64,000 nt of DNA from Eunapius fragilis (taxonomy: Eukaryota > Porifera > Demospongiae > Spongillida > Spongillidae). A program made the translations under genes and the position numbers. This document shows positions 1-64,000 of this stretch, in pieces (position 1 is the first letter of the stretch; each line of letters starts with the position of its first letter). The notes beneath the pieces were generated by a model. The model ran no database searches, was not told the DNA's origin, and was given only the letters and a program-made list of their open reading frames with translations. Location: contig OY811982.1 of the NCBI GenBank assembly GCA_963681505.1, positions 7,083,261-7,147,260 of the forward strand, given 5' to 3'.

Positions 1-3000
1 AAGGAGGAATTGTTTCGCAAGTATCTTGTTAGCATTTCCCTCGAGAAGATAGATGAATTTATATTCAGTTCTGAAGGAGAGTGTAACGAGAAGTGGGTCA
101 CTTCCCGAAATAAAGATGATGTGGTGCTGTCCACTTTAGCGAACAAGCATGTGTGCAAGCACATCGTGGAGGAATACTGTCAGTCACAGGTAGACAAGAT
201 GCAGCCAGGCTCAGGGCTCCGGATGCAACCACTAGATGAAATTATGTGTGCCAATTGCACTCCGAAGATCGAGTCAGGTGTTGCTATGTGTGAGAAGAGA
301 GGGACGATGGACTGTTCTGAAGGGTGCGGCCTGGTGAAATATTGCTCCCAGAGATGCGAGAAGGAGCATTCACCAGCACATAAAGTTGATTGCAAGTCAA
401 GGTATGCTAAGAAGGCCTGGCTGAAGGGCAGTAAGTACGATATGACTGCAGAGGATGCCAGTGGGGAGCCCCAGATTGTGGATCGAAGATTCCACTCAAA
501 GGCAATCCAGTTTCCGTCCAGTGCCACGAGCCTCCCATCATCATGCAGTGCATGCCTGGCTGAGAGTGGGGACCTGAGTGACATGGTGCATACGATCCTG
601 AGTGTTCCAGATGGATATGAGGGCGAGATCACCCTGCATCTCAACCATGCATCACCTAACGTGGCTTTCCGCAACCTGCTATCACTGCTAGCCATGGGCA
701 CCTTCAGAGAGTTGAGTTGCGACATGGTGATACAATTGTGGTATTCTGTCGCGATTACATACGATCAAATGACGATCATCAATGAAATGCTGCGAAAGCT
801 AGTGCAAGCCTCTGAGGGAAGGGTGATGAAAAGTCCATACTGTGCATCTTTGTCAAAACTGCCTTACATCATGCTCACAGTTGACCTTGATCTGAAACAT
901 TGGGTTGTGATGCTCACCGAGAATAGATTGGAATCATCACGACATATTGGAAAGTGCATGGAAGATCGGGATAAGCATTTGTTCAGCCCTCAAGGCAAAC
1001 GATATGCTGTTGAGATGCTCAGCACACTGTCCTCTCACCAGAGAGTCTCGTGGGACAACTTTGCGCAGCTGGGCATGCTGCTCCCTCTAGGAGCACTCAA
1101 TGCACACCACAATGTGCAGAACCCATTCCTGTTCAATGTTGATAATCGCTGGAGGCCAGAAAGTCAGCTTGATCCTCTACAGTGCTGGCCGAAGGCTGAG
1201 ATAATTGCAGCAGGGGAGAAGTGTAACGTACCCAGCAATGACATTTATGGTGCATTGTTCTTCCTTATTCGGCAGAAGCTCTCTGAGTGCATCCAGAAGC
1301 TAAGCAAGCACAGGTTTCACATCGTAGTCACCTGCTGTGAACCAAGTGCCCTCGTGCATCGACTCCAACAATCCAAGACAGCAATACACTATATCTCAGG
1401 GGTGGATGCTAGACAGCTGCAGTATGCACATTCAGACGATCAGGAACTCTCGGCCCTCAGTGTTAGGGCTCTGAAGGAGATCATTCATGGTGCAGGGCTA
1501 TCATCAGAAGGATGCCTGGAGAAGTGTGATCTCGTGGATCGTGCTGCCTTGATTCTTGGACGTGCTGCACCATCCGATGGTAAATATTCCACTGCAGCAG
1601 ACACAACATTGCCACCCACACAACAACAACCTGACGAGGCAAGTGAGAAGAGAAGGTTCATAGAGACTCGAGCAAGCCTTGATCCTCCTGATTTCCTTGC
1701 TGTCTGGTATCTTGCCCAGCATGGCGACATAACGTGGATGGAGAAAGGTGCTGAGAAGTCAATTCCTGAATGCCTTGCCCTCTATGGCTGGCATCAACTA
1801 TGCTGGTTTACACCTGAGAATGCACTAAGTGCCTTATCACATCTGCAGCGAGCGAAAGACATGAAGAATGCTTATGGACTACTTTACTGGGGTTTGGTCA
1901 TGGATAGTGCATACGGAGACACCGCTGATGCTTGCTCTGTTGCATGGACCTGCTACCATGAGTCTGCATGCCTTGGAAATCAGGTTGGAATGTTTAATGT
2001 CGCACATGTCTTGGAAGCTCGTGGAGATCACCAACAGGCAGTTGAGTGGTGGAAAAAAGCGCAGCAGCATGGGCCTTCGTTGTTCGAGCTGTATCGTTGT
2101 TACCATCACGGGGATGGCTGCACACAAGATGATCTGGAAGCGAGGAAGTACTTGCAGCAGGCTGCTGATGAAGGCTATGGCCCTGCATGTACTGCTTTGA
2201 GTGAGTGGTATGGTTCAGGCTGGGAGAATGTGCTCCGTAAGAACCCAGAGAAACAAGCGTATTGGTGCAAGCAGGCCACCATCTCATCAGAGAAGCATAT
2301 CTATTCAGACCCCTTGCGGAGCTTACTTCAGACAAATGCCACTCCAGCCTGGTGGAAGTCCCTAAGAACAGTGGTGGAGTTAATGGAACCAAGTGGTGGA
2401 GGAACCAAGTCTGAGAGCAAAGCGAGTGCTGATGCAGATGACACATTTGACACACGGAAGTTTGCTATTGAGGGAGCGGAGAAATTCATGATGCAAATGA
2501 ATCCATCACCATCCAATGGATGTGGCATGGGTGACTTCAGTTCTACTCCACCACATCATCCGTTCCTTCTGACAGCAGAGAGCTTGGCCCTAACATCAAA
2601 TGAACAGCTGCAGCTACAGGGTATAGTGCAGGAAATCAGAGACCTTCTGACCCGCAGCAGAGTGATCACCTCGGTGGAAGTATGTGGTTCGTATGGAAAA
2701 GGCACTGCTGTAAGTGGTTGTGCTGACCTAGACATGGTGGCGATAACTGCAAAATGCTTTGAGAGCGATATGTACCTGTCCCTGCAGTGTCATGTAGCCA
2801 CTCTACTTGAAGACCTCAAGGTGGACATAAAGTATAAGCCATTGGCTGTATCCTTCACATACAAGCATGTGGGGATCGATGTGGTACTAGCCAGCCCCAA
2901 CATTGAACCCCTTTCACAGTGTTACCTTCCACCACGACCACGCTTCTTTCGTAGGCCCTCGTTATCTGTTCAAGAGTGCGCCTTCCTTCGTGCACAGCCC

Positions 3001-6000
3001 CCACTGTTTGGTGCTGTTGTACGACTATTGAAGAACTGGCGAGCAAGTGCAGAGAACTGGCCTCGTCACAGCAGGCCACGTTCCTATTTACTGGAGCTCA
3101 TTGCATTAGCAGCAGTTCAGAAAGTCAATGCCTCGCAGTCCAATGAGGAAACTATACGCAATGGCTTTGTCACTTCTCTTGAGTTACTGCTGCAGGTAAT
3201 CAGTGGCAACCTGAAACTGTACTGGGCTGACAACTACCCTGAATATAGCATCCAGTTTGAGAACCATGAGGGGCCCATTGTGATGGATCCCTTTGATCCC
3301 ACAAACAACTTGGCTGGGCTTCTTCAGATCCAGGATTGGCGTCCCCTGAGCCAGCTGGCTGAGCAGACCCTCATTGCTATAAGAGATCACAACCTCGTGC
3401 AGAGAGTCATCCATATTACACCAACTGCTGAGCAAAGTGTGTCTGCTATCTCTCCCCAGTATAGGTTTTCGTGCATCGTTCTCAGGGCAGAGCAGTTTAT
3501 AAGAGCTGGCAACCTGGAGGAAGCACTGGATGCCCTGGCAGCTGCATCGCAGATTGACACCTCAAACATAAAACTGCAATGCATGTGGCAGGAGTGCATC
3601 ACACAGCTCTTCGCCGAAGAATGTGGGGCAAAGCAATCATCATTGACGGAAGCTGAGTTGTTTTTGAGATTGAAGGATGCTGTTGTGGACACAGTACAAG
3701 TGTCAAAATTTGGGAAGGAAGTGAAGAAAGTGTTTGCCCAACCAGCGAAATCACCTGATTACATCACCAAGAACATGGGTGCATGCAAGGAGATGGACAT
3801 CCCATTCTCAACTTACATGAGTTCACGCGATGAGGTTGATAGTGACTCTTCAGAAGAGGAAGGCATCCCACGGATGGTGAAGCTGTTCCCTGAGGCCAAT
3901 GAAGATGAGCTATACTCTTCACAGATCACCAGTGTAGTCTGGAAATCAGCTTTTAAGGATGGAAACTACGCTGCATGGCTAATTTTGAGGCAACTGACCG
4001 ACAAGATGCCTTCAAAAGAGCAGCGAGATATGTACACAAGGGCTAGTCTGCAGTGTGTGTTGGCGTATGATGCACTTTGTGTGGGTAAGGATGTTATTGG
4101 CCTTGACCGTATGACAGCTTCCATTCTGACAACAGCTCAAACTACACAGCTTCATGCATTGCATACCCTAGCCCTTGCTGCTGCTAAACGTGTGTTGAGA
4201 GATGTTTCTTCAGAGATGCAGGTCTTACCTCACTGTGGCCTCAGTCTACAAGTGGCAGCCAGCATTGTCCAAGTGCACGTGTATGTGGGGATGCAGGCAT
4301 GGGACAAGGCTAGGGAAGCTCTGAAGCCTCTGTTGAAACGAGATGACTTGTGTAATCGAGCTGATGTTTGTTACCTTATTGGGGGTAGCTTGATTTGGAC
4401 AGGTGATCACGATGCAGCAATGTTGTGGCACGAGCGAGGGATCGCAGCAGACCCCACCTTCCATATAAATCTGTTTTCACTTGGACTTGCAATGATTCAC
4501 TCAAAGTCAACAAATGTAGCCGACCTAGAGCAAAAGTCACTTATCATGAAGACTGCAGAGAGGCACTTGTGGCAGTACATCAAGCAAGGGATGCCAGAAG
4601 ATAAAAAGCGCTGTGATGCGATGTACGAGCTGGTCTACGTGGCTGTGCTTTCATCAAAATTTCAGGAGGCTCACCACATATTGGAGATGGCTATTGAGGC
4701 AGATATCAGGCGCACTGAGATCTACAATGAACCCAGCAACAATGGTGCTAAGAAAGCTCTGCTGGTGGATGCAATCCAAATGGAGCAGTTAGTAAAGGTG
4801 AATGGAGCTATGCAAAATGATGATCCTGAGATAAATCTATATTATGACACTCTGCAAAAGAAACTTTATGGAAATCCACTCCTAATTGAGCTCGATATTG
4901 CGATGCAACTGAAGAATGTGTCGAGTGTAAACCTGGATACTACGATGGATAACGTTTCTCAGATAATGGCCACATCATTTTGGAGTGGTGACAAATCGAG
5001 GTCTGAATTTGCTGCTAACATTCTAAAGAATCTGACAAAAAGTAAAGACAGTGGTGACAGTGTTGGCAGGAAAGATGATGTGAATGAAGAGGAGGGGGAG
5101 AAGAAGAAGGGCATGCAACATATTGTGGTGGACTGCGAAGGGTCTGGTGATTTCCTTTTATTGGGGGAAGCACTCAGGAGTGATTGCATTGTCACTGGCA
5201 CAGTGATTACAATGAAAGGAGGCACATACAAGGAGAACATAGGCCTTTGCATTAAACACAAACACCTCACCATAAGAGCAGAGAGCAGTAAACAAAAGGT
5301 CGTTATCAAGTCATATGATGGGATCCGCGTGGAGGCCAGTCATGTGACCCTGTCAGGGTTATCGGTGGACCTTTTGAGTCCCAAGGGTTACGATGGTGTT
5401 AAAGAACTGGATGGTCACGCCATCCATGTACGAGCAGGCACAGCTGTGGTGCTGGAAAACTGCAGTGCTAATAGTGTGAAAAGTGCAGCAATGGTTGTAG
5501 GGGATGTAGTGCAGTCTAATGAGATCGAGGTCACAATGGTGATGTGCACCGCAAGATCAAGTGTTGGCAATGCAATTATTTGTACTGGTTCCCACACCAA
5601 GGTGCAGCTGCAGCAGTGCAATGGCACTCACTCCAAAAACGGGCTTGAGGTGCGAATGGGTGCCACAGCTCATGTGAGAAGCTCACACTTTTTTTGCAAT
5701 GAGATTTCTGGCGTGCTTGTATGGCAACATGCAAGTCCAGAAACAGTTATTGGACCAGACAACGTCATCCAGGACAATCAAGGTTCAGGAGCCCTGCTGG
5801 CGGCTCGGGGTATCGTCTTCCTAAATAACAAGGTCACTGGGAATAAGCTTTTTGGAGTCTCTGTCGAGGCTGATCCCTCCCCTGGTTTCAAAGATGTCGA
5901 GGTCAAGGTAGAAGGCTGTGAACTCTTTCAGAACGGCTGTGGTGGAGTTCAATTTTGTGAGGGAACATGTGGTGTCATTTCTGGTTGTCACATAAAGAAG

Positions 6001-7188
6001 AACAATCAGTGTGGCATCATGGTGGGCATGGGTGTGGAGAAGTTGAGTATTGCAGGAAACCGAATCCAAGGTAATTACTCCATGCAAGAAACTGGCATAG
6101 TGATGCTGGGCAGGGCAAAGGTGGCAGGTGATAACAAGTTCAGCAACAATAAACTGACTCCTGAAACGACAGAAGAGTGTTTGAAGACAATGCAGGAATT
6201 ACAGTTAATCGAGGCAAAAACTGAAACGACAAAAGAGTTCATCAAGTTGAATGAACACCATCAAGGAAGGCATGCAGGTCAGAGGCGACGTGAGATTTTA
6301 GTGTGCAAACAGATGGCTCCTCACCTGTTTGGACGACTTCAGTGTGCCAAGTGTGGTGCTGAAGGCGGGCCTCGCAAAAAGATGGTGCCTTGTGTCAAAT
6401 GCTATGAAGTGGTGTACTGCTCCACACAATGTCTCAAAGCAGATGCCAACCAGCATCAAGAGTCTTGTGATCCAGTCCTGTTCTATGAGACTGTTGATGG
6501 AAAGGAGATCAGCATCGATACAGAACACCTGCAGCGTATGCAAGCAGAGCGAGAGAATGCAGGCATGGTGTGTGCCTACTGTAACGCCATCGCAAACAAA
6601 GAGCCTTACAAGAAGTGTGCCAAATGCAGACATGCTGCCTACTGTTCGAAAGAATGTCAGAAAAAGCATTGGCCTGTCCACAAAACTGTGTGCAAGAGTG
6701 CACCCAAGGAATCTTGTAGCCAGAAGACAAAGGCTGGAGCTTCCTCTTTTGTCATCGTGAAAGCCACCACTCAGAATCCATTCAAAGCCAAGTGCACATC
6801 CATGAATGACACAGTCCTGAGCATAAATAATTATGTGGGTCCAGATGGCAGTGTAAGGATTGGGGACCCAGTGGGCATGTTTCAGTTGTCGAGCGATGCA
6901 GTGCCAATGGTCATCAAGATACAAGGGAGCGAGGATGATCTCATCAAGAAAAATACCCACCTAATGTTTTATAACGAGAATAGGAGTGTGAGTGGGTGGA
7001 TTGAAGCTGCCATGAACACCACAGGGGAGTTTAAAGATGCTTACACCCTTATATGTGACACAATCATGCAGTTTGGGGATGCAGGTCGGTTGGGTGGCAA
7101 GAAGGGCTATTTCAATGCAGTGGTTCAGAGGAACATGGAGGTGAAGGTGGATTGTGTGACTCTGGTTGCGGAGAATATTGAGTGGTGA
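1..7188 (+). CDS. Giant MYND / Sel1 / OAS-type nucleotidyltransferase / beta-helix protein, copy 1 (5' partial)
   Basis: The frame is open from the first base to a TGA at 7186-7188, giving 2395 codons; comparison with copy 2 puts about 52 N-terminal residues beyond the window. Counting residues from position 10, the visible parts are: a MYND finger (80-128); a DUF4470-like stretch with the HLNHASPNVAFRNLLSLL signature; a SAP-like motif (LSVRALKEIIHGAG); Sel1-like helical repeats (about 618-759); an OAS-type nucleotidyltransferase (about 865-1130) with GSYGKGTAVSGCADLDM (Gly893, Asp906, Asp908), third acid Asp957 in VGIDVVLA, and the late OAS motif MDPFDPTNN; TPR-like helices; a right-handed beta-helix (about 1704-2047); two canonical MYND fingers (2112-2154, 2187-2227); and an unassigned C-terminus. 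In the OAS family this fold makes 2'-5' oligoadenylates from ATP, in vertebrates on binding dsRNA. Activity and ligand here are inferred. There are no introns, no signal peptide and no obvious membrane segment, so a cytosolic or nuclear scaffold-enzyme is likely. Confidence 0.9.
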   Translation, partial: KEELFRKYLVSISLEKIDEFIFSSEGECNEKWVTSRNKDDVVLSTLANKHVCKHIVEEYCQSQVDKMQPGSGLRMQPLDEIMCANCTPKIESGVAMCEKRGTMDCSEGCGLVKYCSQRCEKEHSPAHKVDCKSRYAKKAWLKGSKYDMTAEDASGEPQIVDRRFHSKAIQFPSSATSLPSSCSACLAESGDLSDMVHTILSVPDGYEGEITLHLNHASPNVAFRNLLSLLAMGTFRELSCDMVIQLWYSVAITYDQMTIINEMLRKLVQASEGRVMKSPYCASLSKLPYIMLTVDLDLKHWVVMLTENRLESSRHIGKCMEDRDKHLFSPQGKRYAVEMLSTLSSHQRVSWDNFAQLGMLLPLGALNAHHNVQNPFLFNVDNRWRPESQLDPLQCWPKAEIIAAGEKCNVPSNDIYGALFFLIRQKLSECIQKLSKHRFHIVVTCCEPSALVHRLQQSKTAIHYISGVDARQLQYAHSDDQELSALSVRALKEIIHGAGLSSEGCLEKCDLVDRAALILGRAAPSDGKYSTAADTTLPPTQQQPDEASEKRRFIETRASLDPPDFLAVWYLAQHGDITWMEKGAEKSIPECLALYGWHQLCWFTPENALSALSHLQRAKDMKNAYGLLYWGLVMDSAYGDTADACSVAWTCYHESACLGNQVGMFNVAHVLEARGDHQQAVEWWKKAQQHGPSLFELYRCYHHGDGCTQDDLEARKYLQQAADEGYGPACTALSEWYGSGWENVLRKNPEKQAYWCKQATISSEKHIYSDPLRSLLQTNATPAWWKSLRTVVELMEPSGGGTKSESKASADADDTFDTRKFAIEGAEKFMMQMNPSPSNGCGMGDFSSTPPHHPFLLTAESLALTSNEQLQLQGIVQEIRDLLTRSRVITSVEVCGSYGKGTAVSGCADLDMVAITAKCFESDMYLSLQCHVATLLEDLKVDIKYKPLAVSFTYKHVGIDVVLASPNIEPLSQCYLPPRPRFFRRPSLSVQECAFLRAQPPLFGAVVRLLKNWRASAENWPRHSRPRSYLLELIALAAVQKVNASQSNEETIRNGFVTSLELLLQVISGNLKLYWADNYPEYSIQFENHEGPIVMDPFDPTNNLAGLLQIQDWRPLSQLAEQTLIAIRDHNLVQRVIHITPTAEQSVSAISPQYRFSCIVLRAEQFIRAGNLEEALDALAAASQIDTSNIKLQCMWQECITQLFAEECGAKQSSLTEAELFLRLKDAVVDTVQVSKFGKEVKKVFAQPAKSPDYITKNMGACKEMDIPFSTYMSSRDEVDSDSSEEEGIPRMVKLFPEANEDELYSSQITSVVWKSAFKDGNYAAWLILRQLTDKMPSKEQRDMYTRASLQCVLAYDALCVGKDVIGLDRMTASILTTAQTTQLHALHTLALAAAKRVLRDVSSEMQVLPHCGLSLQVAASIVQVHVYVGMQAWDKAREALKPLLKRDDLCNRADVCYLIGGSLIWTGDHDAAMLWHERGIAADPTFHINLFSLGLAMIHSKSTNVADLEQKSLIMKTAERHLWQYIKQGMPEDKKRCDAMYELVYVAVLSSKFQEAHHILEMAIEADIRRTEIYNEPSNNGAKKALLVDAIQMEQLVKVNGAMQNDDPEINLYYDTLQKKLYGNPLLIELDIAMQLKNVSSVNLDTTMDNVSQIMATSFWSGDKSRSEFAANILKNLTKSKDSGDSVGRKDDVNEEEGEKKKGMQHIVVDCEGSGDFLLLGEALRSDCIVTGTVITMKGGTYKENIGLCIKHKHLTIRAESSKQKVVIKSYDGIRVEASHVTLSGLSVDLLSPKGYDGVKELDGHAIHVRAGTAVVLENCSANSVKSAAMVVGDVVQSNEIEVTMVMCTARSSVGNAIICTGSHTKVQLQQCNGTHSKNGLEVRMGATAHVRSSHFFCNEISGVLVWQHASPETVIGPDNVIQDNQGSGALLAARGIVFLNNKVTGNKLFGVSVEADPSPGFKDVEVKVEGCELFQNGCGGVQFCEGTCGVISGCHIKKNNQCGIMVGMGVEKLSIAGNRIQGNYSMQETGIVMLGRAKVAGDNKFSNNKLTPETTEECLKTMQELQLIEAKTETTKEFIKLNEHHQGRHAGQRRREILVCKQMAPHLFGRLQCAKCGAEGGPRKKMVPCVKCYEVVYCSTQCLKADANQHQESCDPVLFYETVDGKEISIDTEHLQRMQAERENAGMVCAYCNAIANKEPYKKCAKCRHAAYCSKECQKKHWPVHKTVCKSAPKESCSQKTKAGASSFVIVKATTQNPFKAKCTSMNDTVLSINNYVGPDGSVRIGDPVGMFQLSSDAVPMVIKIQGSEDDLIKKNTHLMFYNENRSVSGWIEAAMNTTGEFKDAYTLICDTIMQFGDAGRLGGKKGYFNAVVQRNMEVKVDCVTLVAENIEW

Positions 7189-7408
7189 GAGCTCAGGTGA
7201 GAGGGTGCTATGAGCATGGGTGTGTTATTAGTAAGCTGGCCCCCTAAGGTCCAAATGCAGAGGTGTGCTATTTACAACTTGTGCACTTTGTCAAGGTCAT
7301 GCATGTCCAGATGTGGCCCATATCTTGCTTTTTATTCAAATTGAATTTTATACAGATTTAAAGTCTTAACTGTTCTGATTATAATATAATGATGCAAGTC
7401 ATCCTATA

Positions 7409-7414
7409 AATAAA
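7409..7414 (+). terminator. Candidate poly(A) signal of copy 1
   Basis: AATAAA lies about 220 bases after the stop codon in an AT-rich 3' flank. The aligned position behind copy 2 reads AACTAT, so the hexamer is missing there; a second AATAAA further downstream (8408-8413, and 23961-23966 behind copy 2) is kept in both. Which is used cannot be told from sequence. Confidence 0.35.
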
Positions 7415-7585
7415 TTCAAGACACTTTTTAAATTTTGCATGTATAATTTATTGCTCTAGATATTAAAATTATGTGTAGCTGGTCATATATGTGCTCACGA
7501 ACACATGTTAAAGCATGTAACAAAAGTAACACTACAGTTCTCTAACCCTCCACTTTTTAGTTACATTTGCTCCCTGGAGACAAAT

Positions 7586-8066
7586 CCCGGGTGAAAAAAT
7601 ACACGTAGTAACGCGTTATAACGCGTGAAAATGGGACATAAATAACGCCAAAACACGCGATTTTCAAGATGATTATCTCCTTGATTGTGCAATACAAAAG
7701 AGTTGAATTTTGCCTATACACAAAGCGGTCCAGTGTGTATAAAGTTCCAAAGACTGGTTGGTTTGGCGTGCATCGTTCCGAAGATATTCACATCCAAGTA
7801 CGAACTTGATTTCGCGGGAAAGTTTACAAAAGCCCGCGAAATTAAGCTAGTACATTGAATGTGAATATCATCGGAGCGATGCATGCCAAACCAACCAGTC
7901 TTTGGAACTTTATACACACTGGACCGCTTTGTGTATAGGCAAAATTCAACTCTTTTGTATTGCACAATCAAGGAGATAATCATCTTGAAAATCGCGTGTT
8001 TTGGCGTTATTTATGTCCCATTTTAACGCGTTATAACGCGTTACTACGTGTATTTTTTCACCCGGG
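7586..8066. mobile_element. Foldback / MITE with ~210-nt inverted arms
   Basis: The element opens with CCCGGGTGAAAAAATACACG and closes with its reverse complement; the two arms (about 7586-7801 and 7849-8066) pair almost throughout. The loop carries a smaller palindrome built on TTTCGCGGG / CCCGCGAAA. An AT dinucleotide flanks both ends (7584-7585 and 8067-8068), while the duplicated flank of copy 2 has a single AT at 23615-23616, which is the empty site. No coding capacity is seen, so it is non-autonomous; the superfamily is not assigned. Confidence 0.85.
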
Positions 8067-8805
8067 ATGAAACTAAATACTAGAAGGGTGTGAGGGTGCA
8101 ATTGCCCCCGCAGGCCACCTCAGTGTAATCAAAGTAACTAATATTCATAGCATTAATTGATGCCAAATGTGATACTAGTTTAGTATACAATGTATTACAC
8201 AACGCCATAGGGTACAGTTTGTTGACCTTCATAAGTTATTCTGTAGTTTAGTCCTTCGGAAGTCTTGAAAAACTTGATTTGTTGAATGGCACCAAAAGCT
8301 TCTGGCAGCCCCCCACCTTGCCCCATCAAGTGAATGCCTTACCCTCAATTAATGTGATATGCGGACATCATTCTACTAATATTTCCAACTGTTGCTTGAC
8401 GATCCATAATAAACACCCATCTATAATTCAAATTATTATTCCACCTTGGTACATATACATGTATACAAAAATATGCATGTACATGAATATGCATGCTCTC
8501 TCAATCCTTTATTGTGCACTTACATGTATTATTGTATGTACACCTTGTTTTTGCCTGTGAACATGTGCATCCTTATTAGTGAGGTGTCCAGCAAATTACC
8601 TCTCTCTTCCTCCCTTACCTTAACACCATACTAACTTTCTCACATCAGCAGTGATGGTAATGGCCTCCCTTGCAAAACTTCAAAGATCCTTTGGTTGAAA
8701 GGACATCAGCTAGTAGTGCTGTGTGTACTGATTGTTTTTGTTTTTATGAATATGTATTTTGTGGAACATATTACTTTGGAATGATATAGGCTAAGTTCGT
8801 ACTAT

Positions 8806-15851: not shown

Positions 15852-18800
15852 ATGGCTGCATGCGTTGCAAGGGCTCATGACGACGAAGATGACGATGTCT
15901 GTGTACGAAGTACCTACGAAAGCAAAGTCGCCACTTACCTATCCCTCAGGGAGCAGAAACGGAAACAGCTGAACAAGGATCTGAATGCAGCAGCTTCTCA
16001 AGCACAGAAGGAGGAAGTGTTTCGAGAGTATCTTGTTAGCATTTCCCTCGAGAAGATAGACGAATTTATATTCAGTTCCGAAGGAAGGTGTAATGAGAAG
16101 TGGGTCGCTTCCCGAAACAAAGAGCTGTTCAATTTAGCGAACAAGCATGAGTGCAAGCACATCTTGGAGGAATACTGTCGGTCACAGGTAGCCAAGATGC
16201 AGCCAGGCTCAGGGCTACGGATGCAACCACTGGATGAAATCATGTGTGCCAATTGCACTCCGAAGATCGGGTCACCAACCAGTTACAGTGTTGCTATGTG
16301 TGAGAAGCGAGGGATGATGGACTCTTCAGAAGGGTGCCACCTGGTGAAGTATTGCTCCCAGAGATGCCAGAAGGAGCATTTCCCAGCACATATAGTTGAT
16401 TGCAAGTCAAGGTATGCTGAGACAGCATGGCTGAAGGGTAGTAAGTATGATACGACTGCAGAGGATGCCAGTGGGGAGCCCCAGATTATGGATCGAAGAT
16501 TTCATTCAAAGGCAATCCGGTTTCTGTCCAGTGCCACGAGCCTCCCAACACCATGTAGTGCATGCCTTGCTGAGAGTGGGGACCTGAGTGACATGGTGCA
16601 TACGATCCTGAGTGTTCCAGATGGATATGAGGGCGAGATCACCCTGCATCTCAACCATGCATCACCTAACATAGCTTTCCGCAACCTGCTATCACTGCTA
16701 GCCATGGGCACCCTCGGAGAGTTGAGTTGTGACATGCTGATACAATTGTGGTATTCTGTCGCCATGACATACGATCAAATGACGATCATCAATGAAATGC
16801 TGCGAAAGCTAGTGCAAGCCTCTGATGGAAGGGTGATGAAAAGTCCATACTGTGCATCTTTGTCAAAACTGCCTTACACCATGCTCACAGTTGACCTTGA
16901 TCTGAAACATTGGGTTGTGATGCTCACCGAGAATAGATTGGAATCATCACGACATATTGGAAAGTGCATGGAAGATCGGGATAAGCATTTGTTCAGCCCT
17001 CAAGGCAAACGATATGCTGTTGAAATGCTCACTGCACTGTCCCCTCACCAGAGAGTCTCGTGGGACAATTTTGTGGAGCATGGCATGCTGCTCCCTCTAG
17101 GAGCACTCAATGCACACCACAATGTGCAGAACCCATTCCTGTTCGATGTTGATAATCGCTGGAGGCCAGAAAGTCAGCTTGATCCTCTACAGTGCTGGCC
17201 AAGGACTGAGATAATTGCAGCAGGGGAGAAGTGTAACGTACCCAGCAATGACATTTATGGTGCATTGTTCTTCCTTATTCGGCAGAAGCTCTCTGAGTGC
17301 ATCCAGAAGCTAAGCAAGCACAGGTTTCACATCGTAGTCACCTGCTGTGAGCCAAGTGCCCTCGTGCATCGACTCCAACAATCCAAGACAGCAATACACT
17401 ACATTTCAGGGGTGGATGCTAGACAGCTGCAGTATGCACATTCAGACAATCAGGAACTCTCAGCCCTCAGTGTTAGGGCTCTGAAGGAGATCATTCATGG
17501 TGCAGGGCTATCAACAGAAGGATGCCTGGAGAAGAGTGATCTTGTGGATCGTGCTGCCTTGATTCTTGGACGTGCTGAACCATCCAATGGTAAGTATTCC
17601 ACTGCAGCAGACACAACATTGCCACCCACACAACAACAACCCGACGAGGCAAGCGACCTGAGAAAGTTCATAGAGGCTCGAGCAAGCCTTGTTCCTCTTG
17701 ATTTCCTTGCTGTCTGCTATCTTGCCCAGCATGGCGACATAACGTGGATGGAGAAAGGTGCTGAGAAGTCAATTCCTGAATGCCTTGCTCTATATGGCTG
17801 GCATCAACTATGCTGGTTTACACCTGAGAATGCACTTAGTGCCTTATCATATCTGCAGCAAGCGAAAGACATGAAGAATGCTTATGGACTACTTTACTGG
17901 GGTTTAGTCATGGATAGTGCATACGGAGACACTGCTGATGCTTGCTCTGTTGCATGGACCTGCTACCATGAGTCTGCATGCCTCGGAAATGAGGATGGCA
18001 TGTTTAATGTTGCACATGTCTTGGCAGCTCGTGGAGATCACAAACAGGCAGTTGAGTGGTGGAAAAAAGCGCAGCAGCATGGGCCTTCATTGTTCGAGCT
18101 GTATCGCTGTTACCATCATGGGCATGGCTGCACACAAGATGATCTGGAAGCGAGGAAGTACTTGCAGCAGGCTGCTGATAAAGGCTATGGCCCTGCATGT
18201 ACAGCCTTGAGTGAGTGGTATTGTTCTGGCTGGGAGAATGTGCTCCGTAAGAACCCAGAGAAACAAGCATATTGGTGCAAGCAGGCCACCATCTCATCTG
18301 AGATGCGTATCTATACAGACCCCTTGCGGAGCTTACTTGGGACAAATGCCACTCCAGCCTGGTGGAAGTCCCTAAGAACAGTGGTGGAGTTGATGGAACC
18401 AAGTGGTGGAGGAACCAAGTCTGAGAGCAAAGCGAGTGCTGATGCAGATGACACATTTGACACACGGAAGTTTGCTATTGAGGGAGCGGAGAAATTCATG
18501 ATGCAAATGAATCCATCACCATCCAATGGATGTGGCATGAGTTCAACTCCACCGCATCATCCGTTCCTTCTGAGAGCAGAGAAGCTGGCCCTAACATCAG
18601 AAGAACGGCTGCAGCTGCAGTGTATTGTGCAGGAAATCACAGACCTTCTGACACGCAGCAGAGTGATCACCTCAGTGGAAGTATGTGGTTCATTTGGGAA
18701 AGGCACTGCTGTAAGTGATTGTGCTGACCTCGACATGGTGGCGATAATTGCGAAATGCTTTGAGAGCAATATGTACCTGTCCCTGCAGCGCCATGCAGCC

Positions 18801-21800
18801 ACTCTACTCAAAGACCTCAAGGTGGATTTAAAGGTGGATATAAAGTATAAGCCACTTGCTGTATCCTTCACATACAAGCGTGTGGGAATTGATGTGGTAC
18901 TGGCTAGCCCTAACATTGAGCCCCTTTCACAGTGTTACCTTCCACCACGTCCACGCTTCTTTTGTAGGCCCTCGTTATCTGTTCAAGAGTGCGCCTTCCT
19001 TCGTGAACAGCCCCCTCTGTTTGGTGCTGTTGTACGACTATTGAAGAACTGGCGAGCAAGTGCAGAGAACTGGCCTCGTCATAGCAAGCCACGTTCCTAT
19101 TTACTGGAGCTCATTGCACTAGCAGCAGTTCAGAAAGTCAATGCCTCGCAGTTATCTGAAGAAAATGTCCGCAGTGGCTTTGTTACTTCACTTGAGTTGC
19201 TGCTGCAAGTAATCAGTGGCAACCTGAAGCTGTACTGGGTTGACAACTACCCTGAATATAGCATCCAGTTTGAGAACCATGATGGGCCAATCGTGATGGA
19301 TCCCTTCGATCCCACTAACAACTTGGCTGGGCTTCTTCAGATCCAGGATTGGCGTCCCCTGAGCCAGCTGGCTGAGCAGACCCTCATTGCCATAAGAGAT
19401 CGCAACCTCGTGCAGAGAGTCATACATATTACACCAACTGCTGAACAAAGTGTGTCTGCTATCTCTCCCAAGTACAGGTTTTCGTGCCTCATTCTCAGAG
19501 CAGAGCAGTTTATGATCGCTGGCAATCTGGAGGAAGCACTGGATGCCCTGGCAGCTGCATCACAAATTGACACCTCAAACATAAAACTGCAATGCATGTG
19601 GTATGAGTGCATCACACAGCTGTTTGCCGAAGAATGTGCTGACGCAAAACAATCATTGACGGAAGCTGAGTTGCTTTTGAGATTGAAGGATGCTGTTGTG
19701 GACACACTACAAGTGTCAAAATTTGGGAAGGAAGTGAAGAAAGTGTTTGCCCAACCAGTGAAAGCACCTGATTACATCACCAAGAACATTGGTGCATGCG
19801 AGGAGATGGACATTCCATTCTCAACTTACATGAGTTCACGTGATGAAGCTGATAGCGACTCCTCAGAAATGGATGACATCCCGCGGATGGTGAAGCTGTT
19901 CCCTGAGCCCAGTGAGGACGAGCTCTACACTCCACAAATCACCAGTGTAGTCTGGAAATCAGCTCTTAAGGATGGAAACTACACTGCATGGCTAATGTTG
20001 AAGCAACTGACCGATCAGATGCCTTCAAAAGAGCAGCGAGATATGTACACAAGGGCTAGTCTGCAGTGTGTGTTGGCACATGATGCACTTTGTGTGGGTA
20101 AGGATGTTATTGGCCTTGACCGTATGACAGATTCCATCCTGGCAATAGCTCAAACTGCTCAGCTTCATGCGTTACATGCCCTCGCCCTCGCTGCTGCTAA
20201 ACGTGTGTTGAGAGATGTTTCATCAGAGATACATGTCTTACCTCACTGTGGCCTCAGTCTTCATGTGGCAGCCAGCATTGTCCAAGTGCACGTGTATGTG
20301 ATGATGAAGGCATGGGCCAAGGTTAGGGAAGCTCTGAAGCCTCTATTGAAGCAAGATGACTTGTGTAATCGAGCTGATGTTTGTTACCTAATTGGGGGTA
20401 GCTTGATTTGGACAGGTGATCATGATGCAGCTATGTTGTGGCACGAACGAGGCATCACAGCCGACCCCACTTTCCGTTTTAATCTGTTTACACTGGGGTT
20501 TGCAATGATTCACTCAAAGTCGACAAACAAAGCTGACCCAGAGCAAAAGTTGCTTATCATGAAGACTGCAGAGAAGCACTTATGGCAGTACATCAAGCAA
20601 GGGGTGCCAGAAGACAAAAAGCGCTGTGATGCAATGTATGAGCTGGTCTACGTGGCTGTGCTTTCATCAAAATTTCAGGAGGCTCACCGCGTATTGGAGA
20701 TGGCTATTGAGGCAGATATCAGGCGCACTCAGATCTACAACCAACCCAGCAACAATGGTACTAAGAAGGATCTGCTGGTGGCTGCAATCCAAATGGAGCA
20801 GTTAGCAATGGTGAATGGAGCTACATGTATGCAAAATGATGATCAAGGGATAAATCTATTTTGTGACACTGTACGAACAAAACTGGGTGGAAATCCACTC
20901 CTGATTGATGTCGATATTGCGACGCACCTGAAGAATGTGTCGATTTTAGGCCTGGATACTGCGAGGGATAACGTTTCTCAGATAATGGCCACATCTTTTT
21001 GGAATGGTGACAAATCTAATTCTGAATTAGCTGCTAATATACTAAAGAAACTGACACAACGTAAAGACAGTGGTGATAGTGTTTGCAGGGAAGATGATGT
21101 GAATGAAGAGCAGGGGGAGAAGAAGAAGGGCATGCAATATATTGTGGTGGACTGCGAAGGGTCTGGTGAATTCCTTTCATTGGGGGAAGCACTCAGGAGT
21201 GATTGCATTGCCACTGGCACAGTGATTACAATGAAAGGAGGCACGTACAAGGAAAAGGTAGGCCTTTGCATTAAGCACGAACACCTCACCATAAGAGCAG
21301 CGAACAGTAAAGAGAAGGTCATTATAAAGTCGTATTCTGGAATCCTAGTGGAGGCCAATCATGTGACTCTGTCAGGGTTATCAGTGGACCTTTTGAGTCC
21401 CAAGGGTTACGATGGTGTTGGAGAATTGGATGGTCACGCCATCCATGTACGAGCAGGCACAGCTGTGGTGCTGGAAAACTGCAGTGCTAATAGTGCAATA
21501 AGTGCAGCAATCGGTATAGGGGACGTAGTGCAGTCTACTGAGATCGAGGTCACAATGGTGATGTGTAACGCAAAATCAAGTGTTGGCAATGCAATTATTT
21601 GTGAGGGTTCCCACACCAAGGTGCAGCTGCAGCAGTGCAATGGCACTCACTCCAATAACGGGCTTGAGGTGCGAATGGGTGCCACAGCTCATGTGAGAAG
21701 ATCAAACTTTTCTAGCAACAGGAATTCTGGCATGCTTGTATGGCAACATGCAAGTCCAGAAACAGTTGTTGGACCAGATAACATCATCCAGGACAATAAA

Positions 21801-22910
21801 GGTTCAGGAGCCCTGTTGGCATCACGGGGCATCATCTTTCATCATAACAAGGTCACTGGGAATAAGCTTTTTGGGGTCTCTGTCCAGCCTGATCCCGCCC
21901 TAGGTTTCAAAGATGTCGAGGTCAAGGTAGAAGACTGTGAACTCTTTCAGAATGGCTTAGGCGGAGTCCAGTTTTACGGGGAAACGTGTGGTGTCATCTC
22001 TGGTTGCCATATAAAAGAGAACAATCACTGTGGCATCATGGTGGGCATGGGTGTGGAGAAGTTGAGCATTGCAGGAAACCGAATACAAGGTAATTACTCC
22101 CTGCAAGAAACTGGCATTGTGATGCTGGGCAGGGCAAAAGTGGGAGACGATAACAAGTTCAGCAACAATAGGATGACTCCTCAAAAGGCAGAAGAGTATT
22201 TGAAGACAATGCAGAAATTAGGGTTAATCGATGCAAAAACAGAAATGGCAAATGAGTTCATCAAGTTGAATCAACACCATCAAGGAAGACATGCAGGTCA
22301 GAGGCGACGTGAGATTTTAGTGTGTAAACAGATGGCTCCTCACCTGTTTGGACGACTTCAGTGTGCCAAGTGTGGTGCTGAAGGTGGGCCTCACAAGAAG
22401 ATGGTGCCTTGTGTCAAATGCAATGAAGTGGTGTACTGCTCCACAAAATGCCTCGAAGCAGATGCCAATCGGCATCAAGAGTCTTGTGATCCAGTGCTGT
22501 TCTATGAGACTGCAGATGGAAAGGAGATAAGCATTGATGCAGAACACCTGCAGCATATGCAAGCACAGCGAGAGAATGCAGGCATGGTGTGTGCTTACTG
22601 CAAAGCCATCGCAATCAGAGAGTATTTCAAGAAGTGTGCCAAATGCAGACATGCTGCCTACTGTTCAAAAGAATGTCAGATAAAGCATTGGCCTGTCCAC
22701 AAAACTGTGTGCAAGAGTGCAGCCAAGGAATCTTGTAGCCAGAAGACAAAGGCTGGAGCTTCCTCTTTTGTCACCGTGAAAGCCACCACTCAGAATCCAT
22801 TCAAAGCCGAGTGCACATCCATGAGTGGCACAGTCCTGAGCATTAATAAATATATGGGTCCTGATGGCAGTGTGGTGAACAGGATTGGGGACCCAGTGGG
22901 CGTGTTTTAG
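15852..22910 (+). CDS. Giant MYND / Sel1 / OAS-type nucleotidyltransferase / beta-helix protein, copy 2 (early stop)
   Basis: This is 2352 codons in one exon. The ATG at 15852 is chosen because copy 3 starts with the same MAAC residues; the frame is open further upstream, but that part runs through the MITE. Domains counted from this Met: a helix-rich charged N-terminus; MYND about 132-185; SAP-like about 537; Sel1-like 673-815; OAS-type nucleotidyltransferase with Gly946, Asp959, Asp961 and Asp1014; TPR-like helices; beta-helix 1762-2107; MYND 2171-2212 and 2247-2287. Differences from copy 1 include a Cys-to-Ser change in the first MYND finger (residue 158), a 12-base tandem duplication (DLKV repeated, near 18826-18837) between the paired aspartates and the third aspartate, and a TAG at 22908-22910 where copy 1 has CAG. 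The product lacks the last 100 residues unless the stop is read through or is an assembly error. Function is inferred as for copy 1. Confidence 0.9.
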   Translation: MAACVARAHDDEDDDVCVRSTYESKVATYLSLREQKRKQLNKDLNAAASQAQKEEVFREYLVSISLEKIDEFIFSSEGRCNEKWVASRNKELFNLANKHECKHILEEYCRSQVAKMQPGSGLRMQPLDEIMCANCTPKIGSPTSYSVAMCEKRGMMDSSEGCHLVKYCSQRCQKEHFPAHIVDCKSRYAETAWLKGSKYDTTAEDASGEPQIMDRRFHSKAIRFLSSATSLPTPCSACLAESGDLSDMVHTILSVPDGYEGEITLHLNHASPNIAFRNLLSLLAMGTLGELSCDMLIQLWYSVAMTYDQMTIINEMLRKLVQASDGRVMKSPYCASLSKLPYTMLTVDLDLKHWVVMLTENRLESSRHIGKCMEDRDKHLFSPQGKRYAVEMLTALSPHQRVSWDNFVEHGMLLPLGALNAHHNVQNPFLFDVDNRWRPESQLDPLQCWPRTEIIAAGEKCNVPSNDIYGALFFLIRQKLSECIQKLSKHRFHIVVTCCEPSALVHRLQQSKTAIHYISGVDARQLQYAHSDNQELSALSVRALKEIIHGAGLSTEGCLEKSDLVDRAALILGRAEPSNGKYSTAADTTLPPTQQQPDEASDLRKFIEARASLVPLDFLAVCYLAQHGDITWMEKGAEKSIPECLALYGWHQLCWFTPENALSALSYLQQAKDMKNAYGLLYWGLVMDSAYGDTADACSVAWTCYHESACLGNEDGMFNVAHVLAARGDHKQAVEWWKKAQQHGPSLFELYRCYHHGHGCTQDDLEARKYLQQAADKGYGPACTALSEWYCSGWENVLRKNPEKQAYWCKQATISSEMRIYTDPLRSLLGTNATPAWWKSLRTVVELMEPSGGGTKSESKASADADDTFDTRKFAIEGAEKFMMQMNPSPSNGCGMSSTPPHHPFLLRAEKLALTSEERLQLQCIVQEITDLLTRSRVITSVEVCGSFGKGTAVSDCADLDMVAIIAKCFESNMYLSLQRHAATLLKDLKVDLKVDIKYKPLAVSFTYKRVGIDVVLASPNIEPLSQCYLPPRPRFFCRPSLSVQECAFLREQPPLFGAVVRLLKNWRASAENWPRHSKPRSYLLELIALAAVQKVNASQLSEENVRSGFVTSLELLLQVISGNLKLYWVDNYPEYSIQFENHDGPIVMDPFDPTNNLAGLLQIQDWRPLSQLAEQTLIAIRDRNLVQRVIHITPTAEQSVSAISPKYRFSCLILRAEQFMIAGNLEEALDALAAASQIDTSNIKLQCMWYECITQLFAEECADAKQSLTEAELLLRLKDAVVDTLQVSKFGKEVKKVFAQPVKAPDYITKNIGACEEMDIPFSTYMSSRDEADSDSSEMDDIPRMVKLFPEPSEDELYTPQITSVVWKSALKDGNYTAWLMLKQLTDQMPSKEQRDMYTRASLQCVLAHDALCVGKDVIGLDRMTDSILAIAQTAQLHALHALALAAAKRVLRDVSSEIHVLPHCGLSLHVAASIVQVHVYVMMKAWAKVREALKPLLKQDDLCNRADVCYLIGGSLIWTGDHDAAMLWHERGITADPTFRFNLFTLGFAMIHSKSTNKADPEQKLLIMKTAEKHLWQYIKQGVPEDKKRCDAMYELVYVAVLSSKFQEAHRVLEMAIEADIRRTQIYNQPSNNGTKKDLLVAAIQMEQLAMVNGATCMQNDDQGINLFCDTVRTKLGGNPLLIDVDIATHLKNVSILGLDTARDNVSQIMATSFWNGDKSNSELAANILKKLTQRKDSGDSVCREDDVNEEQGEKKKGMQYIVVDCEGSGEFLSLGEALRSDCIATGTVITMKGGTYKEKVGLCIKHEHLTIRAANSKEKVIIKSYSGILVEANHVTLSGLSVDLLSPKGYDGVGELDGHAIHVRAGTAVVLENCSANSAISAAIGIGDVVQSTEIEVTMVMCNAKSSVGNAIICEGSHTKVQLQQCNGTHSNNGLEVRMGATAHVRRSNFSSNRNSGMLVWQHASPETVVGPDNIIQDNKGSGALLASRGIIFHHNKVTGNKLFGVSVQPDPALGFKDVEVKVEDCELFQNGLGGVQFYGETCGVISGCHIKENNHCGIMVGMGVEKLSIAGNRIQGNYSLQETGIVMLGRAKVGDDNKFSNNRMTPQKAEEYLKTMQKLGLIDAKTEMANEFIKLNQHHQGRHAGQRRREILVCKQMAPHLFGRLQCAKCGAEGGPHKKMVPCVKCNEVVYCSTKCLEADANRHQESCDPVLFYETADGKEISIDAEHLQHMQAQRENAGMVCAYCKAIAIREYFKKCAKCRHAAYCSKECQIKHWPVHKTVCKSAAKESCSQKTKAGASSFVTVKATTQNPFKAECTSMSGTVLSINKYMGPDGSVVNRIGDPVGVF

Positions 22911-23213
22911 TTGTCAAGTGATGCAGTGCCAATGGTCATCAAGATACAAGGGAGCGAGGATGGCCTCATCAAGAAAAATACCCACCTAATGTTTTATAAC
23001 GAGAATAGGAGTGTGAGTGGGTGGATTCAAGCTGCCATGAACACCACAGGGGAGTTTAAGGATGCTTACACCCTTATATGTGACACAATCATGCAGCGTC
23101 GGGATGCAGGTCGGTTGGGTGGCAAGAAGGGCTATTTCCAGGCACTGGTTCAGAGGAACATGGAGGTGAAGGTGAATTGTGGGAATCTGGTTGCTGAGAA
23201 TATTGAGTGGTGA
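22911..23213 (+). pseudogene. Orphaned C-terminal 100 codons of copy 2
   Basis: Directly after the TAG, the same frame continues to the ancestral stop with no further lesion. It encodes the C-terminal domain seen in copy 1 (IKIQGSEDGLIKKNTHLMFY ... NLVAENIEW). There is no ATG at its start. The near-perfect match to copy 1 means the stop is recent, is polymorphic, is tolerated, or is an assembly error. The domain itself is not recognised. Confidence 0.8.
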
Positions 23214-53965: not shown

Positions 53966-55725
<1,760 letters not shown>

Positions 55726-55779
55726 AAATGCAAAAAATAAGTGTATTGAGATTATGGTTATCCAGCAATGCCTACTGTA

Positions 55780-60441: not shown

Positions 60442-60626
60442 AAAAGCTATAGTGGTGTAAAAAGCAAGGAAACATGGTTAACTGACAGAGAAAGAAAAAT
60501 GAAATTCACCTATATTAGCACATAGTTATGAAAAAATGACATTCACCTGCTAAAATAGGTCTATTTCATTCTTCCTTCCCTGTCAGTTAACCATGTTTCC
60601 TTGCCTTCTACACCACTATGGCTTTT
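60442..60626. mobile_element. Foldback / MITE
   Basis: The ends AAAAGC(C)ATAGTGGTGTA pair, and the arms (about 75 nt each) include GGAAACATGGTTAACTGACA and its complement. The loop is about 35 bases. It has no coding capacity, and no target duplication is certain. Confidence 0.7.
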
Positions 60627-62116: not shown

Positions 62117-64000
62117 ATGGCTGCATGCGTGGTAAATGCAAGTGATGAAGATAGCAACGACTGTGTACGAAGTACCTACGAAAGCGAAGTCGCCACCTAC
62201 CTATCCCTCAGGGAGCAGAAATTGAAGCAGCTGGACAAGGCTCTGAATGCAGCAGCTTCTCAAGCACAGAAGGAGGATGTGTTTCGCGAGTATCTTGTTA
62301 GCTGTAACAACGAGAAGAAAAGCGATTTTATATTCGATTTTAAAGGAGGGTGTAATGAGAAGTGGGAAGCTTCCCTTAACCAGTATTTAGTGGTACAGTC
62401 CACTATAGCGAACAAGTATGGATGCATCCACATCTTGGATGGGTACTGTCAGTCATTTAAAGACAAGATGCAGCCAGGCTCAGGGCTCCGGATGCAACCA
62501 CTGGATGAAATCATGTGTGCCAATTGCACTCCAAAGATCGGGTCACCAACCAGGTACGGTGTTGCTAGGTGTGAGAAGCCAGGGATGATAGACTGTTCTG
62601 AAGGGTGCCGCCTGGTGAAATATTGCTCCCAGAGATGCCAGAAGAAGCATTCACCAGCACATAAGGTTGATTGCAAGTCGAGGTATGCTGAGACAGCATG
62701 GCTGAACGGCAGTAGGTATGATATGACTGCAGAGGATGCCAGTGGGGAGCCCCAGATTTTGGATCGACGATTTCATTCAAAGGCAATCCAGCTTCCATCC
62801 AGTGCCACGAGCCTCCCAACACCATGCAGTGCATGCCTGGCTGAGAGTGGGGACCTGAGTGACATGGTGTATACGATCCTGAGTGTTCCAGATAGATATG
62901 AGGGCGAGATCACCCTGCATCTCAACCATGCATCACCTAACATAGCTTTCCGCAACCTGCTATCACTGCTAGCCATGGGCACTCTTGGAGAGTTGAGTTG
63001 CGACATGCTTATTCAATTATGGTATTCAGTCGCAATGACTTGCGATCAAATTGAGATCATCACTAAAATGCTGGAAGAGCTAGTGCAAGGCTCTGACGGA
63101 AAGGTGACAAACAGTCCGTACAGTGCATCTTTGCCAAAACTGCCACATGTCATGCTCACAGTAGACCTTGATCAGAAACATTGGTTTGTGATGCTCACTG
63201 AGAATAGATTGGAATCATCACGACATATTGGAAAGTGCATGGAAGATCGGAATAAGTATTTGTTCAGCTCTCAAGGCAAAAAATACGCCGTTGAAATGCT
63301 CACTGCACTGTCCCCTCACCAGAGAGTCTCGTGGGACAAATTCGCAAAGCATGGCATGTTGCTCCCTCTAGGAGCATTCAATGCACACCACAATGTGCAG
63401 AACCCATTGCTGTTTGATGTTGATAATCGCTGGAGGCCAGAAAGTCAGCTTGATCCTCTACGGTGCTGGCCGAGGGCTGAGATAATTGCAGCAGGGGAGA
63501 AGTGTAACGTACCCAGCAATGACATTTATGGTGCATTGTTCTTCTTTATTCGGCAGAAGCTCTCTGAGTGCACCCAGAAGCTAAACATGCACAGGTTTCA
63601 CATCATAGTCACCTGCTATGAGCCAGGTGCCCTTGTGCATCGACTTCAACAATCCAAGACAGCAATACACTATATCTCAGGGGTGGATGCTACACAACTG
63701 CAGTATGCACATTCAGACGACCAGGAACTCTCAGCCCTCAGTGTTAGGGCTCTGAAGGAGATCATTCAGGGTGCAGGTCTATCAACAGAAGGATGCCTGG
63801 AGAAGAGTGATCTTGTGGATCGTGCTGCCTTGATTCTTGGACGTGCTGCACCATCTGATGGTAAATATTCCGCTGCAGCAGACACAACATTGCCACCCAC
63901 ACAACAACAACCCGACGAGGCAAGCGAGAAGAGAAGGTTCATAGAGGCTCGTGCAAGCCTTGATCCTCCTGATATCCTTGCTGTCTGGTACCTTGCCCAG
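62117..64000 (+). CDS. Giant MYND / OAS-family protein, copy 3 (3' partial)
   Basis: From the ATG at 62117 the frame is open for 628 codons to the window edge with no stop. An in-frame ATG five codons upstream (62102) is an alternative start; 62117 is preferred because copy 2 begins with the same MAAC. The visible part covers the charged N-terminal helix, the first MYND finger with its cysteines present (CANC ... DCSEGC ... YCSQRC), the DUF4470-like region and the SAP-like motif. It ends just before the Sel1 repeats, so the nucleotidyltransferase, beta-helix and last MYND fingers are expected beyond the window. Residues about 64-112 differ strongly from copies 1 and 2, while the flanks of that stretch are conserved. 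Confidence 0.88.
   Translation, partial: MAACVVNASDEDSNDCVRSTYESEVATYLSLREQKLKQLDKALNAAASQAQKEDVFREYLVSCNNEKKSDFIFDFKGGCNEKWEASLNQYLVVQSTIANKYGCIHILDGYCQSFKDKMQPGSGLRMQPLDEIMCANCTPKIGSPTRYGVARCEKPGMIDCSEGCRLVKYCSQRCQKKHSPAHKVDCKSRYAETAWLNGSRYDMTAEDASGEPQILDRRFHSKAIQLPSSATSLPTPCSACLAESGDLSDMVYTILSVPDRYEGEITLHLNHASPNIAFRNLLSLLAMGTLGELSCDMLIQLWYSVAMTCDQIEIITKMLEELVQGSDGKVTNSPYSASLPKLPHVMLTVDLDQKHWFVMLTENRLESSRHIGKCMEDRNKYLFSSQGKKYAVEMLTALSPHQRVSWDKFAKHGMLLPLGAFNAHHNVQNPLLFDVDNRWRPESQLDPLRCWPRAEIIAAGEKCNVPSNDIYGALFFFIRQKLSECTQKLNMHRFHIIVTCYEPGALVHRLQQSKTAIHYISGVDATQLQYAHSDDQELSALSVRALKEIIQGAGLSTEGCLEKSDLVDRAALILGRAAPSDGKYSAAADTTLPPTQQQPDEASEKRRFIEARASLDPPDILAVWYLAQ

Follow-up and report, generated by a model that had tools for sequence, protein, structure and literature searches.

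What an OAS-type nucleotidyltransferase does inside a sponge protein of about 2,400 residues is the question raised by this locus of Eunapius fragilis. The window, that is, the whole 64,000-nucleotide stretch analyzed, carries three plus-strand copies of the gene. All three had been recognized in a sequence-only reading, which took the second to run to 23213. Reading of the open frames across the window and its flank showed that copy 1 is an intact single-exon gene of 2,444 codons, with its frame open from window base 1 to 7188 and its start ATG 147 nt upstream of the window. Copy 2 starts with an ATG at 15852 and is interrupted by an in-frame TAG at 22908-22910. Beyond this TAG, in-frame homology continues to 23210 and is followed by the usual stop; thus, the final 100 residues are missing from copy 2. 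Copy 3 (locus L015) starts with an ATG at 62117, and its frame is broken past the end of the window, where codon 1718 is a stop. Therefore, copy 1 alone is complete among the three. The features are listed in the table.

Table. Features of the giant OAS-type genes in the window (window coordinates)
Feature	Position	Strand	Basis or remark
Copy 1, codons 50-2444 of 2444	1..7188	+	First 49 codons upstream of window
Copy 1, N-terminal MYND finger	247..393	+	Pfam; stretch placed from sequence
Copy 1, DUF4470 (PF14737)	535..753	+	Pfam, E 8e-10
Copy 1, small SAP-like helix pair	1444..1542	+	Weak ARMET_C match, E 7e-4, 19.4 bits, below cut-off of 23.5
Copy 1, TPR/Sel1 repeats, match core	1990..2178	+	Pfam
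Copy 1, OAS/CD-NTase-type nucleotidyltransferase, two lobes	2575..3384	+	Profile matches
Copy 1, catalytic loop: GSYGKGT (K, 2698-2700) and DLD (Asp, 2725-2727; Asp, 2731-2733)	2698..2733	+	
Copy 1, third catalytic Asp (GIDVVLASP)	2878..2880	+	
Copy 1, OAS1_C (PF10421)	2980..3372	+	Pfam, E 1.3e-12
Copy 1, right-handed beta-helix region	5122..6153	+	Weak Pectinesterase, NosD and Beta_helix matches
Copy 1, second MYND finger	6343..6468	+	Pfam counts three MYND stretches
Copy 1, third MYND finger	6571..6693	+	Pfam
Copy 1, conserved C-terminal tail and stop codon	6889..7188	+	No Pfam match; dN/dS 0.23
Copy 2, domain order as copy 1, to premature TAG	15852..22910	+	
Copy 2, OAS1_C match	18993..19385	+	Pfam
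Copy 2, leftover C-terminal tail homology and usual stop	22911..23213	+	Past the premature stop
Copy 3, 5' part (MYND, DUF4470)	62117..64000	+	Leaves the window

The two long copies share one domain order, as had been proposed, and Pfam gives it as MYND, DUF4470, a weak SAP/ARMET_C-like match, Sel1/TPR, OAS1_C, a weak TPR, Beta_helix/NosD and two MYND fingers; the E-values of its three main domains range from 4e-19 to 1e-12. Profile searches thus recovered the expected MYND, OAS1_C, Sel1/TPR and beta-helix modules, while the expected NTP_transf_2 match stayed under its cut-off. In the N-terminal MYND stretch, 9 of 10 Cys/His positions are invariant in all 13 complete copies of the genome. Matches to Sel1/TPR proteins of known structure reach beyond the Pfam core of copy 1 and span approximately residues 597-763 (window numbering, P0002). 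The DUF4470 module was absent from the earlier reading; in DNAAF3, a dynein assembly factor, DUF4470 forms the N-terminal domain. The same genome encodes another DUF4470-MYND protein, which has no OAS domain (locus L036).

Both Pfam and PDB profile matches bear out the placement of an OAS-superfamily nucleotidyltransferase in this scaffold. OAS1_C scored 47.6-52.0 bits in the window copies (48.2 and 47.6 bits in the two long ones) versus a curated cut-off of 19.9, and the top PDB matches of the enzyme domain were OAS2, OAS1 and OASL (E 1e-15 to 3e-9). Mab-21 (PF03281) gave no match at E 0.01 in the two long window copies and four family proteins. The OAS model matches the C-lobe, the Pfam N-lobe matches (SMODS and NTP_transf_2) fall below their cut-offs, and models of CBASS cyclases match both lobes. 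The latter raises the alternative that the enzyme is a CD-NTase whose product is a cyclic oligonucleotide, as with the CBASS cyclases, rather than a linear 2'-5' oligoadenylate. NF041116 (CBASS_cyclase_a) matched all 17 segments scanned, out of 24 copies in all, with a best E of 1e-13; on the copy 1 segment it covered residues 45-295 of 360, and the PADLOC cyclase PDLC00808 covered residues 58-297 (E 1.4e-11). In addition, the OAS superfamily has been placed within the bacterial clade C CD-NTases, as described in PMC10732462. However, NF041116 reached only 44.5 bits on the copy 1 segment, far below the NCBIfam equivalog cut-off of 200 set for these bacterial enzymes. The PDB search likewise ranked OAS2, OAS1 and OASL far above the single bacterial cyclase (60.6 versus 21.4 bits), with OAS3 lower still at 18.4 bits, and PF10421 scored well above its cut-off. 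A strictly cyclic product of this kind is therefore improbable.

The GS-x-GKGT loop, the paired aspartates, the third aspartate and the MDPFDPTNN motif reported earlier are all present. GSxGKGT and the DxD pair are invariant in all 23 copies that hold them, and the third Asp in 24 of 24. All three catalytic Asp residues are also invariant in a 34-row alignment, in which 14 of the 33 full proteins come from this genome, copy 1 included. Every copy that includes the VVRLLKxW helix retains its R and K. AlphaFold2 yielded no usable model: on narrow alignments, the mean pLDDT was 48.3 for residues 1-539 of copy 1 (30 rows) and 42.4 for residues 540-1290 (34 rows; window numbering), and approximately 25-45 over the enzyme.

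A genome-wide profile search (E 0.001, above cut-off) identified 24 OAS1_C-bearing copies, a number not given in the earlier reading. Thirteen are complete, 3 are open short forms and 8 are broken, the last including two window copies. Sixteen of the 24 lie in one array of approximately 450 kb, all on the same strand. The 3' flank was duplicated together with the gene, and the tree shows repeated lineage-specific expansion. Thus, the family grew by tandem duplication at the DNA level, with the loss of some copies, and the expansion claimed from the window alone holds across the genome. Co-duplicated 3' flanks rule out retro-copying within the array. A random open reading frame or assembly artifact is ruled out by the frames of approximately 2,400 codons, the Pfam E-values, the 24 copies, the relatives in other records and purifying selection. 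A search to E 10 found no ordinary OAS gene, with the caveat that an intron-split OAS could escape detection; it added four places, namely, one partial family copy (C3, 23 bits) and three matches below the cut-off. Ribonuc_2-5A matched one locus in three pieces on contig C7, which fits either RNase L or IRE1. Searches for STING and Mab-21 gave no match in this genome, but the control genomes gave none either, so that these negatives carry no weight.

Selection was assessed as dN/dS over pairs of the 13 complete copies. The whole gene gave 0.41 and the two enzyme lobes gave 0.22 and 0.28, and both the whole frame and the enzyme are thus under purifying selection. Thirteen complete copies and a dN/dS of 0.41 exclude an array of dead genes. 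Among 40 windows of 60 codons, the highest value was 1.00 and all others were at most 0.75. The second MYND finger lies inside residues 2120-2235 and the third at residues 2238-2282; the linker at residues 2295-2345, which contains no MYND finger, gave 0.70. By this crude dN/dS test, the family shows birth-and-death duplication, and rapid diversification of the arms-race type was not seen.

Since the catalytic residues are unchanged and few parts of the protein are more constrained than the enzyme, it is probably active. The same two observations, together with the retained GSxGKGT loop and the R and K of VVRLLKxW, make it very unlikely that the domain is a noncatalytic, OASL-like binding module inside the scaffold, a reading suggested by the giant scaffold itself and by human OASL, which lacks catalysis according to PMC6307210. 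In vertebrate-type OAS, dsRNA activates the enzyme via a basic groove. Of the OASL groove positions R45, K66, R196 and K200 given in PMC4446440, placed by eye on the PDB profile alignments, K66 is retained as Lys, K200 is mostly Arg and R196 is Cys, with R45 unaligned.

Close relatives occur in Ephydatia muelleri. Over their full length, its proteins P0012 and P0018 share 84% and 86% identity, respectively, each with its own best-matching Eunapius fragilis copy, and the gene model P0012 matches copy 1 in length and domain order, which answers the earlier call to look for this order elsewhere. When proteins were searched with the OAS segment (282 residues) as the query, eight were returned, all of this giant family (79-93% identity, 24-100% query coverage). 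No relative was found in the bacterial and archaeal genomes scanned with two peptide patterns derived from the OAS alignment, nor in a scan of plasmids. The sequence-only reading knew of no described protein with the full architecture; in fact, it is already known from E. muelleri, where an 'Oas1-like' gene was described that combines OAS, TPR and beta-helix domains with three MYND domains (PeerJ 2021, PMC7882143). This gene is likened to the present family by its described domains. As available, that report treats one gene by symbiosis RNA-seq and mentions no copy number, tandem array, active site, selection or subfamily analysis.

The OAS proteins of marine sponges are small. As described, they are active with broad use of NTPs (PMC2852836) and independent of dsRNA (PMC6307210); these are sponge OAS too, and they are set apart by description, as no comparable scaffold is mentioned in the available text of either report. 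A parallel in design is offered by those cGAS-like receptors that carry additional TPR, ankyrin or death domains (PMC9980059). They are likewise nucleotide second-messenger synthases fused to interaction modules, and an early animal has many of them. However, they belong to the Mab-21/cGLR branch and not to OAS, and MYND, DUF4470 and beta-helix modules go unmentioned in the available text (PMC9980059).

Taken together, the data rather favor a lineage-expanded family of giant, single-exon, multidomain OAS-superfamily nucleotidyltransferases in a sponge close to Ephydatia, which would produce a 2'-5' or cyclic signal. Proteins or other ligands may be bound by MYND-DUF4470 at the N-terminus, by the Sel1/TPR helices and by the beta-helix with its two MYND fingers at the C-terminus, and partner binding could switch the enzyme lying between these modules. 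The enzyme would then build a short oligonucleotide, 2'-5'-linked or possibly cyclic, from ATP (or from other NTPs), and this signal may serve the response to microbes or algal symbionts. Alternatively, the scaffold could be mainly structural or cell-biological and the nucleotide signal a housekeeping one. The link of DUF4470 to DNAAF3, the OAS-free protein L036 and the lack of any region with a dN/dS above 1 would agree with this. However, copies have been gained and lost in a lineage-specific manner, which housekeeping genes seldom show, and expression of 'Oas1-like' was lower in algae-bearing E. muelleri 24 h after algal infection, as reported in PMC7882143. We therefore regard a housekeeping role as doubtful. 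The role in immunity or symbiosis is inferred from this one expression result in another species.

More tentatively, OAS may occur here only as scaffold-bound, giant receptor-like synthases, whose copies would couple different partner surfaces to one conserved core. Their signal would act on a receptor distinct from RNase L and might set the tolerance of algal symbionts. Sponge OAS has posed a puzzle: the enzymes are active, yet a survey of four sponges, according to PMC6307210, detected neither RNase L nor interferon. With a conserved core, more variable modules and sponges that, as described, can be grown both free of algae and with them (PMC7882143), this family makes the original signaling role of OAS testable.

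An OAS-type nucleotidyltransferase was joined with MYND, Sel1 and beta-helix modules in a single open frame, as the sequence-only reading had proposed. In copy 1, Pfam matched MYND (68.7 bits, three stretches), DUF4470 (39.1 bits), Sel1 (30.7 bits), OAS1_C (48.2 bits), Beta_helix (57.8 bits) and NosD (28.8 bits). TPR, which had also been claimed, as well as ARMET_C and Pectinesterase, gave weak matches under their Pfam cut-offs. The main modules of the earlier domain list were thus recovered, but DUF4470 had been overlooked. Copy 2 carried the same main Pfam set but lacked Pectinesterase, and its Sel1 match was slightly under the cut-off. The solved structures matched by sequence were mainly Sel1/TPR, OAS and MYND proteins (SMYD2, SMYD3, and ZMYND10). 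Two further large DUF4470 frames were found in the genome, L036:1119-4655 on contig C1, which ends in MYND fingers and lacks any OAS match, and L037:1132-3999 on contig C17, whose frame extends past its locus and holds a DUF4470 match. These two loci suggest that the MYND-DUF4470 combination is found by itself in sponges.

The window, positions 7083261-7147260 of contig C12, holds the 3' 98% of the 2,444-codon frame of copy 1, with the ATG 147 nt upstream, and the copy 1 locus matched its full protein (P0003) at 100%. Of the three long plus-strand frames described earlier, copy 1 was open and copy 3 had its ATG as placed, but copy 2 stops early; its proposed end at 23213 is reached only by passing through the in-frame TAG, past which homology persists in frame for 100 residues, to 23210. 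In copy 3 the frame is interrupted by a stop at codon 1718, outside the window.

Positions of the giant-gene copies and repeats in the window
Feature	Position	Strand	Remarks
Copy 1 frame	1-7188	+	open throughout
Palindromic insert	7584-8068		~485 bp, 3' flank of copy 1; 94% to own reverse complement
Copy 2 frame	ATG 15852 to TAG 22908-22910	+	
hAT dimerisation region and DDE_1 pieces	32751-33248 and 46129-46641		between copies 2 and 3
Retroelement	48351-51917		consecutive frames match reverse transcriptase, RNase H and Integrase_p58_C/SH3_Tf2-1
CA dinucleotide array	53966-55724		1.76 kb, 98% matches
Copy 3	ATG 62117, extends beyond window	+	

Copies 1 and 2 have 7.6 kb in common at 92% identity. 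After an interrupting insert, the likeness resumes in the 3' flank for another 1.7 kb at 85%, so the duplication took place at the DNA level. The palindromic insert is MITE-like, and the flanks belonging to copy 2, L012 and L017 (the last two being further loci) lack it. Between copies 2 and 3, a scan of 10 of the 64 listed ORFs revealed transposon pieces: hAT, DDE and a retroelement, which carries reverse transcriptase and RNase H and which we take to be Gypsy-type. The CA array yields false long ORFs on both strands.

Across the genome (219 Mb in 24 contigs), an OAS1_C search found 24 copies at E 0.001; searches were made exon by exon, from which intron-rich genes can escape. Sixteen copies lay on one strand of contig C12 at about 7.02-7.48 Mb and another at 7.79 Mb. 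Contig C3 held five, plus an additional partial copy (E 0.006), C11 and C5 held one each, and C22 carried a DUF4470 piece and a weak N-lobe match. Complete frames were present in 13 of the 24, and eight were disrupted, whether through stops, frame changes or deletions. Locus L016 has an open frame without a stop; the two stops counted there fall in a match starting before that frame. The other three (L013, L014, and L024) are open but short: what normally separates the beta-helix from the last MYND finger is missing, as are the second MYND finger and the C-terminal tail, and no match extends beyond residue 2313. Two of these loci have identical counterparts among the proteins, P0010 and P0016, and Pfam found two MYND stretches in each. 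Since P0014, which is absent among the genome copies fetched and 92% identical to L013, is also short and groups with these loci in the tree, the short form looks like an established subfamily.

The catalytic residues were preserved. GSxGKGT and DLD were intact in all 23 copies holding them, a deletion in L011 having removed this first part of the enzyme motifs, and the third aspartate was intact in 24 of 24. When copy 1 was aligned with 33 family proteins, 14 of them the genome's own, none of the three aspartates varied. A profile built from 17 of the 24 enzyme segments and searched against the PDB retrieved OAS2, OAS1, and OASL first (E 1e-15 to 3e-9), followed by bacterial CdnC (E 1e-3) and OAS3 (E 8e-3). 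The CBASS cyclase model NF041116 matched 17/17 segments scanned, spanning both lobes in that of copy 1, and PDLC00808 matched residues 58-297 of 360 in the copy 1 segment, also across both lobes; the NCBIfam CBASS match was far below the equivalog cut-off. These matches agree with the placement of the OAS superfamily inside bacterial clade C CD-NTases, as given in the part of PMC10732462 available.

The enzyme is maintained under constraint. Pairwise comparison of the 13 complete copies gave a mean Nei-Gojobori dN/dS, a measure that ignores recombination and gene conversion, of 0.41 over the full length. The two enzyme lobes scored 0.22 and 0.28, DUF4470 0.22, the C-terminal tail 0.23, the beta-helix 0.41 and a linker that follows the last finger 0.70. 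Among 40 windows, each 60 codons long and together spanning residues 1-2400, the highest values were 1.00 (1441-1500) and 0.75 (2101-2160). By this crude test, positive selection was seen in no part of the 13 complete copies.

Relatives of the giant protein were found in protein collections. Among 5.8 billion proteins, copy 1 residues 560-1300 (P0002, window numbering) and 1230-2444 (P0003) retrieved an identical set of 34, all with OAS1_C; thus, within that search no protein of comparable length held one half alone. P0012 is labelled Ephydatia muelleri, and P0018 has a matching Em-style gene number. Nearness to E. muelleri makes a freshwater sponge the probable source of the genome. Fourteen of the 34 were at least 99.9% identical to genome copies, and the other 20 showed 70-92% identity to the best one. 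A quick tree (SH-aLRT support only) was built from 40 rows, namely 20 of the 24 genome copies and 20 others, with 4 frame-changed copies, 14 near-identical proteins and 8 fragments left out. In it the genome copies spread over several groups, forcing at least six label changes. Some groups contained this genome only, and one comprised nine proteins of other records with a single copy from it. We read this tree as birth-and-death expansion, with probably different founders in different sponges.

The architecture had been thought undescribed, a view overtaken by the E. muelleri 'Oas1-like' gene of PMC7882143, to which OAS, TPR, three MYND and beta-helix domains are ascribed. Compared by description, in the part of that paper available, it agrees with the domains that Pfam matched here, down to the weak Pectinesterase match. 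Among the open-licence papers listed for OAS, sponges and Ephydatia, no other was recognised as describing the scaffold. In the available part of the E. muelleri genome paper (PMC7385117), tandem duplication is named as one source of many genes, and 'oligoadenylate', 'OAS', and 'MYND' do not occur in the main text. RNase L was reported from none of four sponges in the available part of PMC6307210. One nuclease locus of the RNase L/IRE1 type was found in the genome studied here, and dsRNA-groove positions of the enzyme gave a mixed picture.

With architecture, catalytic residues, constraint and copy number established, a mode of working can be proposed from what is known of the domain families. 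Modules of the MYND and Sel1/TPR kinds bind proteins, and beta-helices may bind carbohydrate or protein. In the giant protein these modules would do the same, and such binding would switch the enzyme, whose product may be a 2'-5' oligonucleotide or some similar signal molecule. A messenger synthase with binding modules is a known idea, as cGLRs carrying TPR, ankyrin or death domains are described in the available part of PMC9980059. What is new here is the scaffold around the enzyme, a variant of that idea.
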